Counted from the stretch's first letter, positions 20,002-29,577 are shown. The stretch is DNA of 64,000 bases from Sulfurimonas sp. (GCA_027063645.1 JAMORK010000014.1:47017-111016), one strand, 5' to 3'. The notes: generated by a model not told the origin, from the sequence alone. Program-made: numbers and translations.

Positions 20002-21129
20002 ATGATTATAGCCATCTCCTCATTAAAAAAATATTATCTCATTGCAACAAAAACTTCTAAATATTTTTCAGTATTATCTTATTTTATATTAGATAGACTA
20101 ATTTCTATATATTGTAGTTCAAAAGGATGTATAATTTCTACTTTTAAACCTGCCTCTGGTCTAAAAAACAAACATTTACAAACTATCTACTCCACAATTT
20201 TTTCAAAAGAAATTCCTCTTGATTTTGAGATTGAACATTTTACTCTCAGCGATAAAGATTTTTTGGAAGTTTACTGGCATAAAGCAAAAGAAACAGACAA
20301 AAAAAACATTTTGGTTGTACTTTTTCATGGACTTGCTGGCAACTATAAATCACCTTATATACGAGGCAATATTCGAGCACTCAATGAAGCAGGCTTCGAT
20401 ACTGTCATTATGCATTTTCGTGGCTGTGCCGAACAAGCCAATCTTCTACCACGTTCTTATCATAGTGGAGAGAGTGGAGATGCTAAAGAGTTTCTCAATC
20501 ATCTTCATAAAACAACAGAGTATTCTAAAATCTTTTGTGTGGGCTTCTCTTTGGGTGCCAATATGCTACTCAAACTCTTAGGAGAACTCCAAGAAAATAA
20601 TCTTATAGATGGGGCAGTCGCCATCTCAGCACCAATGCAGCTAGATATCTGTGCCAATGAGATAGATCAAGGGATCTCAAAATACTACCAGTATAGACTT
20701 GTCAAAGAGCTCAACAAAGCACTTGATGCAAAATACGATATACACGATATGGAAGCACTCATAGGACTCAAACGCGAGCAGATACAAGATATAAAAACAT
20801 TTTGGGAGTTTGATGATGCTTACACTGCACCGATACATGGTTTTAAATCAGCACAGGATTACTATACAAAATGTAGCTCAAGACAATTTTTAAGTAAGAT
20901 ACAAACACCTACTCTTATCATCCATGCCCAAGATGATCCTTTTATGTCCCCCTCTGTTATACCTTCTCAAGAGGAGGTCTCAGACTATGTCACACTCGAT
21001 ATACAAAAAAATGGGGGTCATGTAGGTTTTGTGGAGGGAAGTTTTCTCAAGCCACACTACTGGCTTGAGAGACGTGTGGTGGAGTATTTTAGATCTCTAC
21101 TTTATAGCCAATCCCAAACACATTCTTAA
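20002..21129 (+). CDS. Alpha/beta hydrolase, YheT-like (start uncertain, probably downstream of 20002)
   Basis: FHGLAGNYKSPYIRGN, VGFSLGANMLLKLLGE, AQDDPFMSP. Confidence 0.87.
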   Translation: MIIAISSLKKYYLIATKTSKYFSVLSYFILDRLISIYCSSKGCIISTFKPASGLKNKHLQTIYSTIFSKEIPLDFEIEHFTLSDKDFLEVYWHKAKETDKKNILVVLFHGLAGNYKSPYIRGNIRALNEAGFDTVIMHFRGCAEQANLLPRSYHSGESGDAKEFLNHLHKTTEYSKIFCVGFSLGANMLLKLLGELQENNLIDGAVAISAPMQLDICANEIDQGISKYYQYRLVKELNKALDAKYDIHDMEALIGLKREQIQDIKTFWEFDDAYTAPIHGFKSAQDYYTKCSSRQFLSKIQTPTLIIHAQDDPFMSPSVIPSQEEVSDYVTLDIQKNGGHVGFVEGSFLKPHYWLERRVVEYFRSLLYSQSQTHS

Positions 21130-21778
21130 TCATCCCCTCTGGGATCTTTCTTCGTAGCGTTTTCACTAAGGTTTTAAGTGAAGATATCTTTTGGTTGTCA
21201 TAATCGTACCAAAGTTCAAAAATAATATCTTCACTACTAAAAACTCTATGAGGATCTGAGAATAGATAGCTTAAAAGGTCTCTCTCTTTTTTTGTTAAAT
21301 CTACATCTTTGTCGTTATAATAAAGCTGTTCTCTATCACAGTCCCAGTAACAAGTTTCTGAAACACGAACAATCTTATTTGTTTGAACAGTGTAGTTTAT
21401 AATCTCTTCAACTGCTATATCTAAGGCTGACTTTAACTCATCTCTAGAGATAGGTTTTACTAGGTATTTTGTCAATTTTAACTCTGTAGCATCAAGTAAT
21501 GTTTCTATATCTGATTTTGCTGTAAGCATAATAGCTTTGACATTATAATCTTGCTCCCGAATCTCTTTAAGGAAAGTGATACCATCTTTTTGAGGAAGAT
21601 TAATATCTATAATCATAATATCAATCTTATGCTCTTTATAGATTTTTAAAGCCTCTTCAGCACTTGAAGCCTCATAAATGGTCTCAAAGTAGCGACTCAA
21701 ATAATTCACATAGTTTTTTCTTACTATCTCTTCATCTTCTAGATACAAAAGAGTGTATTCTAGTTTTGTTGTTTGCAT
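21089..21778 (-). CDS. OmpR-type response regulator
   Basis: REC (IDINLPQKDGITFLKEIR, LVKPI) plus C-terminal winged helix (TLVKTLRRKIPEGMIKNVFGIGYKV). Confidence 0.92.
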   Translation of the reverse strand: MQTTKLEYTLLYLEDEEIVRKNYVNYLSRYFETIYEASSAEEALKIYKEHKIDIMIIDINLPQKDGITFLKEIREQDYNVKAIMLTAKSDIETLLDATELKLTKYLVKPISRDELKSALDIAVEEIINYTVQTNKIVRVSETCYWDCDREQLYYNDKDVDLTKKERDLLSYLFSDPHRVFSSEDIIFELWYDYDNQKISSLKTLVKTLRRKIPEGMIKNVFGIGYKVEI

Positions 21779-21784
21779 ATCTAT

Positions 21785-22483
21785 CTATTCCTTTGGAAGT
21801 ATTATATCAAAGCAGACACCATCTGCTCTATTGTTTACATTGAGTGAACCCTTAAAAGTATTTTCTATATGCTCTTTACACATAAAAAGACCTAAACCTG
21901 TTCCCTCTGAGTCATGCTTTGTTGTGAAGTTTTTGTCAAATATCTTGTCTCTCATACTTTTTGGAATACCTCCGGCATTATCACAAATATGAATAAAAAA
22001 AGAGTTAGTATCTTCACAAACTTTTATAAAAAGCTTTGGTTTGTATACATTGCGTTCTATCAAAGCATCTTTTGCATTATTTAAAAAGATAAGCAGTACC
22101 TGTTTTAAAAGTTTGGCATCACCCGAGAAATGACTTTTTACATCTAGATTAAGCTCTAACTCTATGGCACTATCTTGAAAATTTTGTGCTACAAGTTCAA
22201 GTGTTTGAGTAAATAACTCACTCAACAACAAATCTTCCTCTTTTGTAGCTTCAATATAGTCTATCTTAAAAGCTTCAATGGTATCAGACATATATCTTGT
22301 CAACTTCTCTATCTCTAAGAGATGCTGATGCAATATCTCATCATCTAGTTGTAACTCATAAAGTCTGTTGTCCATAGCACCAACTATAGAATTAATTCCT
22401 GAGAGAGGCTGTCTCCACTGATGTGCTATAGATAAAAATAATTCTTTTGTTTTTGTGTCTAAACTACCCACTTGATGTCCCAT
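21785..22483 (-). CDS. Soluble histidine kinase without obvious sensor domain
   Basis: H-box SIAHQWRQPLSGI, N-box LLIFLNNAKDAL, G-boxes ICDNAGGIP, GTGLGLFMCK. Confidence 0.9.
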   Translation of the reverse strand: MGHQVGSLDTKTKELFLSIAHQWRQPLSGINSIVGAMDNRLYELQLDDEILHQHLLEIEKLTRYMSDTIEAFKIDYIEATKEEDLLLSELFTQTLELVAQNFQDSAIELELNLDVKSHFSGDAKLLKQVLLIFLNNAKDALIERNVYKPKLFIKVCEDTNSFFIHICDNAGGIPKSMRDKIFDKNFTTKHDSEGTGLGLFMCKEHIENTFKGSLNVNNRADGVCFDIILPKE

Positions 22484-22581: not shown

Positions 22582-23151
22582 ATGTCAAAAGAGAACAAAA
22601 CAAACGAAGATATTTCACAACTTGGAAATGTTGATCAAATAAGAGAGATACTTTTTGGTTCACAATCACGTGAACTTAAAGAGAGATTTGAACAGCTTGA
22701 TGCTTCTATAAAATCTATGCACGATGAGATGAGAAAGAAAATTGAACAAACACAAAATGATTTCAATACTCGTATCGATTCAGAACTCGATGCACTCTCA
22801 AGAAAAATGAAAAATATGCTCACACAGCAACAAAATGAGTTTGCTGATGTACGCGATAGTGCACTCAAACAAGAGAAACGCCTTCAAGGAAGTATGGACA
22901 TCATGGAAGAGGAACTCAATACAAAACGTGAGCAACTTCATAAACAACAAATCGAAGGTCATGCAGCACTACGTTCAGATATGGATACACTTAAAGATGA
23001 GATGATCCATACCCTCAATGAAAAGATAGCTGAGATGAACGGTGTAAAACTTTCTCGTGATGATGCAGCCGAAATTTTCATGGAAGCTGCTATGTCCATG
23101 AAAGGGACTCAGATCAAGCAACAATTAGCACTAGCACAAGAAAAAAAATAA
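22582..23151 (+). CDS. Coiled-coil protein, first gene of the small-GTPase operon
   Basis: Highly charged heptad-rich sequence from ~residue 30 to 150; 8-bp gap to next gene. Confidence 0.8.
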   Translation: MSKENKTNEDISQLGNVDQIREILFGSQSRELKERFEQLDASIKSMHDEMRKKIEQTQNDFNTRIDSELDALSRKMKNMLTQQQNEFADVRDSALKQEKRLQGSMDIMEEELNTKREQLHKQQIEGHAALRSDMDTLKDEMIHTLNEKIAEMNGVKLSRDDAAEIFMEAAMSMKGTQIKQQLALAQEKK

Positions 23152-23159
23152 CAAGCTAA

Positions 23160-24794
23160 ATGGCCACAAACAATAAAGGTATCGATGAAAGCCAAGCACT
23201 AGAGGAAGCCTTAGAGCCCATAGTCAATAAGCTCATCGATAAAAACTTTGAAAACTCCCAAGAGAAACTTGCCACCCAAATAGCTCCACTTATAGGTGTG
23301 GCTATTAAAGAACAGATACGATCTCAAAAAGATGATATTATCGATGCACTCTATCCAGTCATGGGTAATATGATCAGTAAGTTCGTTACAAAAAGCCTTG
23401 AGGAGATGCTTCAAAAAATCAATACCCAAATTCAAAATGGTCTCTCCACAAAAGCTATTAAGCGTAAGATAAAAGCAAAAATGAAAGGTGTAAGTGAAAC
23501 AGAACTTCTTCTTCAAGAAAATAGTTCTGCACAGATTCAAAGTGTGCTCCTTATCCATAAAGAGAGTGGAATCCTCCTCGCAAAGGTAGAAAAAAGTTCC
23601 CATGGTCTTAATGAACCCGATATGCTTGCTTCTATGATGACTGCTATTCGTAGTTTTGTGAATGACTGGATAGCTAACGATGGCAACTACCAAGAGCTTG
23701 GTGAGATAGAGTATGGCGGAAACAAGATCATTATAGAAGCTAGTGGAAGTAGTTATCTTGCTGTTATTGTTGAGGGGGCTGCTTATGCAAAAACCTATGA
23801 GACCATTAACGAAGTTTTTGCAACACTTGTTAGCCGTTATGGTGATGCTATTCAAGCCTTTGATGGAGATATACAAAATATTCCACTTGATGAGATTAAA
23901 AAGCTTTTACAAACCCTGCTCTTAGAAGAAACTCAATTCCAAGAGGAGAAGAAAAAGATACATCCTTTACTGATTCTCTTACCTATCTTACTCATAGTGT
24001 GGTTTCTTTACAGCTTGTACACAAACTACCTTGATACACAACTCCAAGATGAAGTAAACAATAAGCTTGCACACACACCACAGCTGGTACTCTACAAGAT
24101 AGATGCAAAAGTTGAAGATAAAGAGCTAACACTTTCTGGAAATCTACCTTATGAGTACTATAAAAACCTTACAGAAAAAACCTTACAAGATATCGAAGGT
24201 TTAGAGTCTATAAAAAATGAGATAACTGTCGTTCCAACACTCAGTGACCCTATGCAAATAAATGCACAAATAGCCTATTATCTTGCAGGCCTTGAAGTTA
24301 ATAAACACATTAGACTTTACTATACTTTTGATTTTACTACACTCCTTATAAAAGGGAGTGTTCCAAGTCAAGAGATAAAGAAAAATATTCTTGAAGGATT
24401 GAAAAAGATTAAAGGTATCAAGCAGCTCAAAGAGGAGATTCAGATTTTACCTCCTAAAATAGATATTCTTATCTATTTTATGCGCAACTCTAGTAAACTT
24501 GATCTTGAATCTCAAGCAAAACTTATCGATCTTATAAGTACACTCAAGAGTAGTGATAGCTCCTTCACCCTAGTTTTAAAAGCTTATTCCGATAAAATTG
24601 GTTCCAAAGAAAAGAATAAACAGCTTGCAGAAATAAGACTTAAAAATATAGAAAACTTTTTACAAGAAAAGGGACAAATCAAAAATGAGATAAAAAGTGA
24701 GATCTTAGATTCATTTTTCCCAGGTACAGATCAAAATAACCCTGATCAATCACGCTGTATTCACATCTCACTTGAGAAAAAGAAGCACTCATGA
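23160..24794 (+). CDS. Membrane protein: longin/roadblock-like N-domain, one TM segment, BON-like region, OmpA-like C-terminus
   Basis: IQSVLLIHKESGILLAKVEKSSHGLNEPDMLASMMTAIRSFVNDWI; TM HPLLILLPILLIVWFLYSLYTNYL; OmpA-like LKAYSDKIGSKEKNKQLAEIRLKNIENFL. Confidence 0.72.
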   Translation: MATNNKGIDESQALEEALEPIVNKLIDKNFENSQEKLATQIAPLIGVAIKEQIRSQKDDIIDALYPVMGNMISKFVTKSLEEMLQKINTQIQNGLSTKAIKRKIKAKMKGVSETELLLQENSSAQIQSVLLIHKESGILLAKVEKSSHGLNEPDMLASMMTAIRSFVNDWIANDGNYQELGEIEYGGNKIIIEASGSSYLAVIVEGAAYAKTYETINEVFATLVSRYGDAIQAFDGDIQNIPLDEIKKLLQTLLLEETQFQEEKKKIHPLLILLPILLIVWFLYSLYTNYLDTQLQDEVNNKLAHTPQLVLYKIDAKVEDKELTLSGNLPYEYYKNLTEKTLQDIEGLESIKNEITVVPTLSDPMQINAQIAYYLAGLEVNKHIRLYYTFDFTTLLIKGSVPSQEIKKNILEGLKKIKGIKQLKEEIQILPPKIDILIYFMRNSSKLDLESQAKLIDLISTLKSSDSSFTLVLKAYSDKIGSKEKNKQLAEIRLKNIENFLQEKGQIKNEIKSEILDSFFPGTDQNNPDQSRCIHISLEKKKHS

Positions 24795-25285
24795 TAAGCT
24801 ATAAAATTGTTCTTGTTGGAAACTTTGGTGTTGGTAAGACTAGTCTTATACGCCGTTTTGTTGAAAACTCATTTAGTGAAGATTATCTAAGTACCATAGG
24901 TGTAAGTATCTCTAAAAAAACACTTCAAAATGCCACCATAATGATCTGGGATATCGAGGGGCATACAGAGTACAAACCTATCTTTAAACAGTATCTTCTT
25001 GGGGCAAAAGGGTTTATACTTGTTGCAGATCTTCTAAGAGAAACAACCATACAAGAGTTACAAAACCATCTTGCTCTATGCAATGAAGTGATCCAAGATG
25101 CACCTGTATGTATAGCACTAAATAAAAGTGATTGTCCCCATAATTTTAATGAGGAGCAGGTTAAAGAGCTTTTTGAACTCTCTAAAAATATTGTTGCCAT
25201 AGAAAAAACATCTGCTAAAGAGGGAACACAAGTAGAATCACTCTTTTTACAACTCAACAAAACCATTACAGAGTCACTTAGCTAA
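24791..25285 (+). CDS. Ras/Rab-like small GTPase
   Basis: G1 GNFGVGKTS, G2 STIG, G3 WDIEGH, G4 NKSD, G5 TSAKEG; 164 aa; ATGA overlap with preceding gene. Confidence 0.92.
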   Translation: MISYKIVLVGNFGVGKTSLIRRFVENSFSEDYLSTIGVSISKKTLQNATIMIWDIEGHTEYKPIFKQYLLGAKGFILVADLLRETTIQELQNHLALCNEVIQDAPVCIALNKSDCPHNFNEEQVKELFELSKNIVAIEKTSAKEGTQVESLFLQLNKTITESLS

Positions 25286-26101
25286 ATGTCAAACACCTCC
25301 CCCTACATCATATTTGATAAATCATTTATAATCAAACAAACAAACTACCCATCCCTAGAGACAAATACAGATATACGAGAATATTTTTATGAGATTGTTG
25401 GGATGGAGGAGGGTATTTTGTCTCTTCAAAAAGGTGAGTCCATAGAGATCCCTATGCTGCTTCGTGATGGCTTATACTACGATATTGAGATTGAACTTTT
25501 TTATGAAACACCACAAGCATATATGATAAGTATGCAACAACACTCTAACCAGATTAACAAATATACAAATGCTCTCAAAGAGATCAATAAAAAAACACTT
25601 ATTCAAGAGATTCACAAGGCTAAAAAAGAGCTCGAGTATGCAGTACAGCACGATACACTCACAGACTTACCAAACAAAAGCTCCCTTCTTAAAGAGATGA
25701 GTAACTATGCAAACAAACAAACAGATTTCTCTCTGTGTTTGTTAGATATAGACAATTTTCATCTACTCAATGATGAGTATGGAGCCCATGCCTGTGATAT
25801 GCTTTTAAAACACCTTAGTGCTCTTTTACAAAAATTTTTTAAAGAAGATATTTTTGTATCAAGAGTGTTTGGAGACTCTTTTGCTATCCTCTTAAACTCT
25901 CAACAGAAGCTAGATCTTCATACATTAGAAAAAGAGATAGAATGTAGTCCTCTTCGTTATACACAAGAAGATATCATCTCTTTTACTTGTACTCTCTGTT
26001 TTGAGCCTTATGCTCCTGAGCACAAAAATCCAAAAGTTTTTCTAGAATATTTACAAAATAAGATGAAAAAAAGAAAGATTGATAAAAAGTTAGCGGGGTA
26101 A
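25286..26101 (+). CDS. GGDEF-fold protein with degenerate signature (FGDSF)
   Basis: DTLTDLPNKSSLLKEM, LCLLDIDNFHLLNDEYG, VSRVFGDSFAILL. Confidence 0.82.
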   Translation: MSNTSPYIIFDKSFIIKQTNYPSLETNTDIREYFYEIVGMEEGILSLQKGESIEIPMLLRDGLYYDIEIELFYETPQAYMISMQQHSNQINKYTNALKEINKKTLIQEIHKAKKELEYAVQHDTLTDLPNKSSLLKEMSNYANKQTDFSLCLLDIDNFHLLNDEYGAHACDMLLKHLSALLQKFFKEDIFVSRVFGDSFAILLNSQQKLDLHTLEKEIECSPLRYTQEDIISFTCTLCFEPYAPEHKNPKVFLEYLQNKMKKRKIDKKLAG

Positions 26102-26620
26102 AATAGCCCGGATTTGATTAGGTACATAGTACTTAAACTGCTTTGGAAAGATAAAAAAGTCTATATCACCTTTCTTCTCAACAATATCAGACCAACTATC
26201 CTCTTCAAAATTCACAGCCACAATACCCATTGTAGGAATTTTAGAGATATACTCCTTAGAGAGCATATTAACCAGTTCACTTAAAAATGGATTGTGCCCC
26301 ATAATAAAAAGTGTATTAGCTTCATCATCTTGTGCTTTGAGTATCTCTATTACCTCTTCATTTGAAGAGATATAAAGCTCTTGAAAATATTCTATCTTTC
26401 CATCATACTCAATATGCTTTGCCAATGCTAAAGCACTCTCCTGAGCTCTAAGTGCACAAGAAGATAAAAATATATCAGGGGAGATACCTCTTAGTTTTAA
26501 ATAAGAGCCTATCATCTGAATATCTTTATATCCTTTCTTTTTTAAAGGACGCTCATAATCACTCTCTCCATAGGAGAAATACTTTGATTTTGCATGACGG
26601 ATAAAATAGATAGTTTTCAT
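26090..26620 (-). CDS. SixA-like phosphohistidine phosphatase
   Basis: IYFIRHAKSKY (RHG-type motif), LFIMGHNPFLSELVN. Confidence 0.88.
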   Translation of the reverse strand: MKTIYFIRHAKSKYFSYGESDYERPLKKKGYKDIQMIGSYLKLRGISPDIFLSSCALRAQESALALAKHIEYDGKIEYFQELYISSNEEVIEILKAQDDEANTLFIMGHNPFLSELVNMLSKEYISKIPTMGIVAVNFEEDSWSDIVEKKGDIDFFIFPKQFKYYVPNQIRAILPR

Positions 26621-27010
26621 TTAGATTTTTGCTAACTCTTCAGAGATCACTTTAGAAGATTTTTCAATAATCATCTTCGCTAATGCGATATTACCATCAT
26701 CTCTAAAGATACAAAAGATATCTATTTTTGAGAGATTATCATCAACATTAGCACTAGCACTTCTCATTAAAAACACATGTCCATCTTTTGTTTTTGTCTC
26801 AAATGATGCAACATCACTAAAACCGATATCTAAAGAAGCTTCATTGATTGAGCGAAATGAATCATTGAAAATTGCCGAAGCATACCCTATATCTGTTCCT
26901 GTATTTTCCTCATCTATATAAAGAGTTTCCCCTGAATAGTTCAATACTGCTGAACCTAGGTAACCGTTTACACTTGAGAGTTTTTTCATTCTTTCATCAA
27001 AATTTATCAT
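26621..27010 (-). CDS. Roadblock/LC7-like domain protein
   Basis: 129 aa single-domain protein: VNGYLGSAVLNYSGETLYID ... FCIFRDDGNIALAKMIIEK, consistent with the Roadblock/LC7 pattern. Confidence 0.68.
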   Translation of the reverse strand: MINFDERMKKLSSVNGYLGSAVLNYSGETLYIDEENTGTDIGYASAIFNDSFRSINEASLDIGFSDVASFETKTKDGHVFLMRSASANVDDNLSKIDIFCIFRDDGNIALAKMIIEKSSKVISEELAKI

Positions 27011-27021
27011 ACTATTTTTCC

Positions 27022-27543
27022 TTATTTGTTTAAATTTTTCATATATGCATTAAATGAATCTGCATTATTTATATTGTTATCGTCTAAAAATGTGTAAAAT
27101 GCTTTTTCAGAGGCTTCTTCACCCTCAGTTTTTTCAAGCTCTAAGAGAGTTTTATACAGTTCACTTATTGTTCCCTTGGCATTTTCTGTAATACACTTAC
27201 GTGTTGACATATAATTTCTAAAAGAGCCATCAGGATTTTTAGCCATCTTTACAGTGGCAAGTACCCAATAGTAACCCCCATCTGCACAAAGATTTTTTAC
27301 ATAAGCTATTACATCTTTACCCTCTTTGATATTTTTCCAAAGATATTTAAAGATCACCTTTGGCATATCGGGATGGCGTAAAATAGCATGAGGTTGCTCT
27401 AGTAGGTTAGCTTGAGAGTATCCAGATATTTTCATAAATATTGGATTTACATAAGTAATATTTCCCGCTTCATCTGATTTAGATACAATTAAATCTACAT
27501 TTTTTACTATATGTTCTGTATTATTTGCCTCTGGTTGTGTCAT
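27022..27543 (-). CDS. Stand-alone PAS domain protein (Aer-like PAS)
   Basis: SDEAGNITYVNPIFMKISGYSQANLLEQPHAILRHPDMPKVIFKYLWKNIKEG. Confidence 0.88.
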   Translation of the reverse strand: MTQPEANNTEHIVKNVDLIVSKSDEAGNITYVNPIFMKISGYSQANLLEQPHAILRHPDMPKVIFKYLWKNIKEGKDVIAYVKNLCADGGYYWVLATVKMAKNPDGSFRNYMSTRKCITENAKGTISELYKTLLELEKTEGEEASEKAFYTFLDDNNINNADSFNAYMKNLNK

Positions 27544-27558
27544 CTATAACTCCTTTAT

Positions 27559-29577
27559 TTAATGGTATAAAACTTTCTTGATATCATCTTTTTTAAATGG
27601 CTTACCTACAACAAGATTAAAGAGATCTCTATCTTGCTCATTATGTATGGCATTACCAGATGTTGATACTGCATAAATTCCTATTAGATTATTATCTTCT
27701 TCATACTCTCTTACTTTTCTAATCACCTCAATACCATTCATCATAGGCATCTCATTGTCTATATAAACGAGAGAAAATGGACTGTTATTTTTATGTGATT
27801 CAACAATCAAATCAAGTGCCTCTTTTCCATTTCTTGCAACAACAACTTCACAAAATTCATCTTCCAATATATTTTCTATAAGCAATACACTAATCTCATC
27901 ATCATCTGCCACTAAAACCTTTGGCTTTTTTTGAGTGTTGATAAACTCATAGAGTTCATCTGCTATATATTCATACTTTGAGATGACATCGCATGTTTCA
28001 CATAAGGCATCTTGATCTACAGAGAACATCTCCTCTTCAACAATAAGTATTTTTTTATGATTTTTTTCAGCTTTATGCAATTCTACATAATCAATTTTAT
28101 TTTGAAAAACGATGATATGCTCTATGAAACTATCAACACTTGTAACATCTTTATAAGGCTTGATTGATTCCTTATTGATTCCCATACGTGCCATATATCT
28201 TGCTATGTTATTTGCTGAAAAACTATTCTCTTTAGCCATTACAATTGCTACTTGTGTTGTTTCGTTTTGTATAATACTAAAGCTACTCTCTGAGTTAATT
28301 ATCTTTATAGGAAGCTCAAAACTAAACTTACTTCCCTCATCCACTGTACTACTAAGATGAAGTTTACCACCCATCTTCTCTACATACTGAGCAGATATAA
28401 AAAGTCCTAAACCTGTTCCACCATAATGAAGTGCCGTAGTATCACTTGCTTGCTTAAAGGCCTCAAATATATCTTTTTGTTTTTCTTTTGCTATACCTAT
28501 ACCTGTGTCTTCTACACTTATAGCTATCTTATTTGAAGATGGTATATAACGAACAACAAACTCTATGGTTTTATTATTTGGTGTAAATTTATAAGCATTA
28601 CCTAAAAGATTTAAAACAACCCTTTTCATCTTCAGTGTATCTATCTCTATTATTTTAGGCAGTAATGGATCTATATAGATATTAAAGCTTATATGTTTTG
28701 CATACATATTTGAAGAAAAAGATTTTCCTATTGATGAGAAGAATTTGATAGTATCTACCTCTTCTAAGAGAGACTGTGCACTCTCTTTATGATTTGAAAC
28801 AAGGTCTAGTACTGATGTTGTCATCTCATTTATAAAAGAAGCACTCTCTTTGGCATTACTTAGGTAGCTTTTAAGTCTTTTATCTTCAATTTGATCCTCT
28901 AAAAGATCTAAAAAGCCATATAGGGTATTTGCCGGTGTGCGTATATCATGCACAAAACTTGATACAAAAGTTAAAATATCATCAGCATTATCTTTTTTCT
29001 CAGCTAACTCTTCTATCTTTTGTATATTATCTACCGCTTGTGATTCTATCTGTTTTGTTTGTTTGTTTGTTTTTTGAGGAATATGCATCTTATAAAGTGC
29101 TTCTATAAGATAAGGGGAGAGTGCCTCTAAAATTTTTATATCTTCTTTATGAAATTTTTTATTTTTATTGATAGAGTTATATGCGGTTACTATCCCTACA
29201 AAAGTACCATTGTCTATTAAGGGAAGCATTATTTTTGATTTTATTTTTATAGTATCTGGGTTGTCAATAGAGGCTACATACTCTTTATCACTTGCTAAAT
29301 AATTATATACAGAGCTTTTTTGAGTCATAAAACATTTATAGATAATCCCTTTTTTTTGGGATAGATCAATCTCTCTTACATCACCCTCTTCTCTTTCTCT
29401 TTTAAGTATAAATTGATTTTCATCATAGAACCATATTGAGGAGAATTCGGCATCTAAAGAGGAGATAACAAGGTTTTGTAAGATAGTATTGAGTTCTCTA
29501 TTATTTGAAGTTGCATCTATTTTCTTTGAGATAGCAATAAATTCTGATTGTAATTGTTTACTACTAAATTTTTCCAA
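27559..29577 (-). CDS. GAF-containing hybrid histidine kinase with C-terminal REC
   Basis: GAF N-term, H-box FVHDIRTPANTLYGFLDLL, HATPase GGTGLGLFIS, REC VYIDNEMPMMNGIEVIRKVR. Confidence 0.9.
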   Translation of the reverse strand: MEKFSSKQLQSEFIAISKKIDATSNNRELNTILQNLVISSLDAEFSSIWFYDENQFILKREREEGDVREIDLSQKKGIIYKCFMTQKSSVYNYLASDKEYVASIDNPDTIKIKSKIMLPLIDNGTFVGIVTAYNSINKNKKFHKEDIKILEALSPYLIEALYKMHIPQKTNKQTKQIESQAVDNIQKIEELAEKKDNADDILTFVSSFVHDIRTPANTLYGFLDLLEDQIEDKRLKSYLSNAKESASFINEMTTSVLDLVSNHKESAQSLLEEVDTIKFFSSIGKSFSSNMYAKHISFNIYIDPLLPKIIEIDTLKMKRVVLNLLGNAYKFTPNNKTIEFVVRYIPSSNKIAISVEDTGIGIAKEKQKDIFEAFKQASDTTALHYGGTGLGLFISAQYVEKMGGKLHLSSTVDEGSKFSFELPIKIINSESSFSIIQNETTQVAIVMAKENSFSANNIARYMARMGINKESIKPYKDVTSVDSFIEHIIVFQNKIDYVELHKAEKNHKKILIVEEEMFSVDQDALCETCDVISKYEYIADELYEFINTQKKPKVLVADDDEISVLLIENILEDEFCEVVVARNGKEALDLIVESHKNNSPFSLVYIDNEMPMMNGIEVIRKVREYEEDNNLIGIYAVSTSGNAIHNEQDRDLFNLVVGKPFKKDDIKKVLYH

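Follow-up and report, generated by a model that had tools for sequence, protein, structure and literature searches.

Gene content of the locus

The window analysed here, a stretch of 64 kb, lies on contig C14 of a Campylobacterota genome (G000, 54% complete) with close relatives assigned to Sulfurimonas. Four of its genes, referred to below as A, B, C and D, form a tight plus-strand operon at positions 22582-26101, in which A and B are separated by 8 bp, B and C share a 4-bp ATGA overlap, and the stop codon of C abuts the start of D. This operon meets a minus-strand operon tail to tail, the last 12 bp of D being shared with the gene at 26090-26620. Both the packed operon (coiled-coil protein, membrane protein with an OmpA-like part, small GTPase, and GGDEF-fold protein) and its end-on meeting with the minus-strand genes had been described in an earlier note on this DNA, and the gene coordinates and Pfam matches bear this description out. 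The features are:

21089-21778, minus strand: OmpR-type response regulator (receiver and Trans_reg_C), divergent to the Rup operon; accompanies the module in the Sulfurimonas clade
21785-22483, minus strand: soluble histidine kinase, 232 aa (HATPase_c, E 4e-15), divergent to the operon
22582-23151, plus strand: gene A, 189-aa coiled-coil protein; conserved as the opening gene of the module
23160-24794, plus strand: gene B, membrane protein, 544 aa, with a cytosolic helical region, a predicted longin/roadblock-like domain, a transmembrane helix, BON and OmpA
23496-23864, plus strand: longin/roadblock-like domain of B, residues 113-235, from an AlphaFold2 model and Foldseek matches
23958-24023, plus strand: transmembrane helix of B, residues about 267-288 (19-residue hydropathy of 2.33 at residue 270)
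24474-24701, plus strand: OmpA-like peptidoglycan-binding domain of B, residues 439-514, with D478 and R493 (Pfam)
24791-25285, plus strand: gene C, Rup (Ras/Rab-like) small GTPase, 164 aa, with DIEGH as G3
25286-26101, plus strand: gene D, output protein, 271 aa, with an N-terminal partner domain and a degenerate GGDEF (FGDSF), the central PAS lost
26090-26620, minus strand: SixA-like phosphohistidine phosphatase of the neighbouring module (TIGR00249, E 1e-16, below the TIGR00249 cut-off)
26621-27010, minus strand: roadblock-like protein of the neighbouring module, 129 aa; low-confidence model matching mostly roadblock structures
27022-27543, minus strand: PAS protein of the neighbouring module, 173 aa (PAS_3, E 1.9e-13)
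27559-29577, minus strand: hybrid kinase of the neighbouring module, GAF-HisKA-HATPase-receiver

Gene A matched no Pfam family above the cut-off, a suspected N-terminal motif shared by A and B was not significant, and the junction between D and the minus-strand operon gave no significant RNA structure (z –1.0).

The small GTPase and its gene neighbourhood

By its sequence, C is a member of the Ras family (Pfam E 1.6e-26), with Rabs as its nearest matches in the PDB. The five G motifs reported in the earlier note were all located (G1 GNFGVGKT, G2 T35, G3 DIEGH, G4 NKSD, G5 SAK), with the correction that the glutamine of G3 is replaced by histidine; relatives mostly carry H, R, K, A or E at this position, and glutamine occurs in two. 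The bacterial GTPases nearest to Rab and Ras form the Rup family (PMC4316618, PMC4915359), for which Wuichet and Sogaard-Andersen described in 2014 a Group 1 lacking the G3 glutamine and encoded beside a coiled-coil gene, a domain-TM-OmpA gene, and an output gene, the domain of the B-type protein being left as a conserved domain of unknown function (PMC4316618). At that time, none of 121 Rup proteins was coupled to MglB and none had been characterised (PMC4316618); in the literature searched, we found no later experimental work on the family. The window operon has this same neighbourhood, and C, with 164 aa, lies within the 150-240 aa of Group 1 and, unlike MglA, carries the G3 Asp. Since the genes present, the motifs of the GTPase, and its lack of the glutamine (DIEGH) all match, the four-gene set, judged from its sequence, belongs to Group 1 Rup, an already described kind; the earlier note, which did not recognise the set, is corrected by the 2014 description of this neighbourhood (PMC4316618).

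When 60 relatives of the order were searched for B, nine besides the window genome had it, and its neighbours stood in the same order everywhere but at one locus, which lacked a called A. In a wider sample of Campylobacterota, B was present in 17 of 398 genomes and A, B and C were adjacent in 15 of the 16 other than the window's, so that the neighbourhood, for which conservation across this phylum had been at issue, is mostly kept where B occurs. Genome-wide scans yielded A-B-C-kinase loci in Bacteroidetes and, in spirochaetes, C-B loci with a convergently oriented gene for an HD-GYP protein. Going by these sequences, the order of the operon is kept much more often than chance would give: almost all related loci examined have A, B and C side by side. 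The patchy distribution fits a module subject to frequent loss or transfer. Arcobacter-type loci (L047-L049, L077-L081) harbor, upstream of A, a conserved protein of 236-240 aa (MGRAFEYRKAAKMKRWGNMS...).

Rup GTPases also occur apart from the full operon. The window genome encodes a second one on contig C35 (L148, 6666-8318, minus strand; 170 aa, DIEGH), directly followed by an HD-GYP-type D protein and with neither A nor B alongside, and genome G009 carries a second one (L157, 1489-2049) alone between a chemoreceptor-like (methyl-accepting) gene and a hybrid kinase gene. One B could serve several GTPase/output pairs.

Divergent to the operon lies the kinase/response-regulator pair. HATPase_c is the sole Pfam domain of the 232-aa kinase, which has no recognisable sensor, and the kinase gene is found upstream of A in all 13 Sulfurimonas-clade loci with enough flank. 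The pair stays with the module even where this sits elsewhere on the chromosome (L022, with differing flanks; genome G009). Being confined to one clade, the pair cannot be a core part of the module; yet a soluble kinase in which only the ATPase domain is recognised needs an external input, which suggests that it acts as an output here. We therefore regard the pair as the most likely signal recipient in the window copy.

The membrane protein and the output protein

Pfam assigns to B a BON domain (residues 292-359, E 2.5e-9) and an OmpA domain (residues 439-514, E 6.8e-8). The OmpA domain retains D478 and R493, 15 residues apart, with the Asp kept in nine and the Arg in all of ten homologues; in OmpA-like domains, these are the residues that bind peptidoglycan. 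Conservation is highest in the cytosolic part of B (0.71 and 0.63, versus 0.45 in BON and OmpA), which a region that binds a partner would be expected to show.

To this cytosolic part we assign, from a predicted model, a longin/roadblock-type fold. Longin, roadblock, profilin, and PAS folds resemble one another. The AlphaFold2 model, built from an alignment of 33 cytosolic regions from three phyla, has a pLDDT mostly of 68-85 over residues 111-240 (50 in the loop at 171-180), with an overall mean of 67 and a pTM of 0.52. Its elements follow the order alpha-beta-beta-alpha-beta-beta-beta-alpha-alpha, which is the longin order with a leading helix; the predicted elements are strands at 125-133 and 139-144, a helix at 153-173, strands at 181-185, 188-194, and 198-205, and helices at 210-232 and 243-262. 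In a Foldseek search of the PDB, nearly all of the first 50 matches were longin or roadblock folds, among them AP sigma subunits, VAMP7, Sec22b, Ykt6, coatomer zeta, dynein roadblocks, MglB, and GATOR, Rag and Ragulator chains, with E-values from 1.5e-4 and TM-scores to the target of up to 0.68 (AP-1 sigma3 0.68, Sec22b 0.67, VAMP7 0.54-0.62; E 1.9e-4 to 1.5e-3). The order of elements in the model is also close to the roadblock order, which a circular permutation relates to that of longins (PMC3521125). Searched as a profile against the PDB, the B domain gave no match, its profile showed no similarity to Campylobacterota Robl_LC7 proteins, and the domain and the 129-aa minus-strand protein did not match each other; the assignment is therefore one of fold rather than proof of homology, and we name the domain longin/roadblock-like instead of placing it in a family. 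A literature search for longin together with OmpA or peptidoglycan returned nothing relevant. With such a fold in B, the GTPase would have a built-in, wall-anchored candidate partner. The earlier idea of a GTPase anchored through the OmpA-like protein thus gains from co-encoding, from the preserved Asp and Arg, and from a longin/roadblock-like fold predicted at 23160-24794, but with the fold residing inside B itself.

D is recognised by the Pfam GGDEF family (E 6.6e-19). In relatives, its N-terminal domain, for which a PAS assignment is unsupported (best PAS match E 0.54), is followed by PAS-GGDEF, HD-GYP, or a kinase. The window copy has 271 aa, compared with about 397 in sister species, having lost the central PAS, and its motif reads FGDSF in place of the GG[DE]EF expected of an active diguanylate cyclase. 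Short, without PAS, and with this motif, it is, on sequence grounds, unlikely to make c-di-GMP and probably serves as a non-catalytic adaptor. Several sister species (L033, L036, L037, L038, L041, and L045) also have non-canonical GGDEF motifs in a D of full length, which suggests a non-catalytic role and not decay. That the window module is decaying, its operon a mere remnant, is accordingly very improbable in our view: the shortening of D and the loss of its GGDEF motif would fit, but all reading frames are intact and overlapping, and G1 to G5 as well as the peptidoglycan-binding residues have been kept.

Candidate partners of the GTPase and a model of the module

The earlier note had labelled the minus-strand gene at 26621-27010 Roadblock/LC7-like and proposed its product as the partner of C. 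The label is plausible from model matches: Foldseek hits to the low-confidence model of the 129-aa protein (pLDDT 54) are dominated by roadblock structures, so that it is probably roadblock-like. It matches, however, no Pfam or NCBIfam family, Robl_LC7 included, and its profile shows no similarity to Campylobacterota Robl_LC7 proteins; hence we call it roadblock-like only. By phmmer, its matches included CyanoP (E 7e-4) and a dynein roadblock (E 0.77); kinship to CyanoP was discarded, as this match did not recur with a profile. Paralogues of the protein, about 33% identical, occur in tandem or in close pairs (L031, 2850-3723; L111; L117). True Robl_LC7 proteins are present in only four of 299 Campylobacterota genomes (L072, L073, L075), adjoined in two by a second small protein.

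An MglA/MglB-like pair, with the 129-aa protein as GAP or regulator of C, would be in keeping with its likely roadblock-like fold and with the position of its gene, which adjoins the Rup module in six of the 11 clade loci with enough flank (the window and five others). The protein and Rup B also occur together in five genomes where 0.8 would be expected among 398 (Fisher p 5e-4, uncorrected for kinship), but four of these five belong to one family and have the two at separate loci; outside the window clade, the two modules lie apart wherever both occur. Moreover, the gene is missing beside the module in L022, L023, L036, L041, and L045, and belongs to a conserved gene set of its own (26090-29577, minus strand), comprising hybrid kinase, PAS protein, 129-aa protein, and SixA-like phosphatase, which recurs in many Campylobacterota genomes without Rup (L093, L094, L103, L107, and others). 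Among the 18 genomes of the 398-genome sample that encode the 129-aa protein, 13 have no Rup B, and none of these 13 has a stand-alone small Ras-like GTPase, all their Ras-family matches falling in open frames longer than 300 aa, like those of translation factors and Der. Its own gene set, the 13 of 18 genomes without Rup B, and a presence of six in 11 loci against 13 in 13 for the kinase separate the two operons: as far as sequence can tell, the minus-strand operon is a distinct module that adjoins Rup in only part of one Sulfurimonas clade. We thus consider the proposed partnership quite improbable. The set of hybrid kinase, PAS protein, roadblock-like protein, and SixA may form a phosphorelay of a kind not yet described, with the roadblock-like protein as one of its components.

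A different assignment of roles starts from the published speculation that the output protein acts as a GAP, giving the catalytic glutamine from an invariant Gln in its N-terminal region (PMC4316618); D would then provide in trans what C lacks, and B would be a mere anchor. The N-terminal domain of D has a Q-x-x-N motif kept across phyla, probably the published invariant Gln, and the Q is present in nearly all loci with a known non-His G3 (exceptions: L027 and L049). Replacement of the Q by K or R is almost restricted to loci with a G3 His (10 of 12), where His could replace Gln in cis; in the window D, Lys stands at the best-matching column (assigned here and not from the published logo), where most relatives outside the clade have Gln, and the residue also differs between systems that are clearly sisters. 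Yet the change lies within one clade and is thus close to a single event, L049 has K with a G3 Lys, two His loci keep the Q, and the second GTPase of the window genome (C35) combines a G3 His with a Q-type D. In addition, the Asn of the motif varies less than the Gln (Asn in 32 of 33), and the motif would sit where the coiled-coil linker from PAS to output is expected. With one clade and exceptions, the exchange of a cis-His for a trans-Gln is suggestive only, and we consider this explanation unlikely.

The reading we favour, and judge on balance probable, takes 22582-26101 as a Group 1 Rup module in which a wall-anchored B docks and regulates C, and C acts on D, with the kinase pair as the likely output. 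The gene set, its conservation, the domains, and the degenerate GGDEF can be read from the sequence. B would span the inner membrane, tied to peptidoglycan through its OmpA domain, and present to C a docking and regulatory site formed by the longin/roadblock-like domain and the preceding conserved helical segment, probably together with coiled-coil A. Changes of envelope state, sensed by the BON-OmpA part, would alter the nucleotide state or the release of C, and C-GTP would then engage the N-terminal domain of D. In relatives, the outputs are either histidine kinases or enzymes of c-di-GMP turnover (GGDEF or HD-GYP); in the window copy, D would be a probably non-catalytic adaptor, with the signal most likely passing to the divergent kinase/response-regulator pair. 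The B-C and C-D contacts are proposed by guilt by association, and we infer which way the signal runs and what it acts on, as well as any role in polarity, which the earlier note had raised.

The module shares with Group 1 Rup as published a small Ras/Rab-like GTPase without G3 Gln, a coiled-coil gene, a gene for an unknown domain followed by TM and OmpA, and an output gene; in contrast to that description, the B domain here looks longin/roadblock-like, the outputs include HD-GYP alone and degenerate GGDEF, and the Sulfurimonas clade adds a kinase/regulator pair. With MglA/MglB it has in common a Ras-like GTPase and a protein of the roadblock/longin fold group, whereas C, with its G3 Asp, has motifs of the Rab-like and not of the MglA type, and the candidate partner is part of a protein with its own membrane and wall anchor; an MglB-type Robl_LC7 protein was not detected in the 54% of the window genome available. 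The actinobacterial conservon (CvnA-D) is likewise a four-gene GTPase module tied to a signalling kinase, although by analogy only, since the present operon has no HAMP sensor kinase, no separate roadblock gene, and a GTPase of another family. Eukaryotic longin-Rab and SR-beta pairs also place a longin-type fold beside a Rab-like GTPase, a likeness at the level of fold that derives from a predicted model.

New here are the fold assignment for B, the separation of the minus-strand operon, the clade's kinase/regulator pair, and the degenerate, shortened D. In eukaryotes, longin/roadblock-type folds regulate Rab- and Ras-like GTPases. A Group 1 Rup with a dedicated longin-type partner that is linked across the membrane to the cell wall is a reading we advance tentatively; the predicted fold would make B a concrete candidate regulator for Rup GTPases, for which no regulator was known before, and the module would link envelope state to a G protein and a c-di-GMP or kinase output. 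The fold also bears on the origin of the longin-GTPase pairing: if the reading is true, envelope-to-cytoplasm signalling in bacteria, with exchangeable outputs (GGDEF, HD-GYP, or kinase), would offer a counterpart to the longin-Rab pairs of membrane traffic in eukaryotes.
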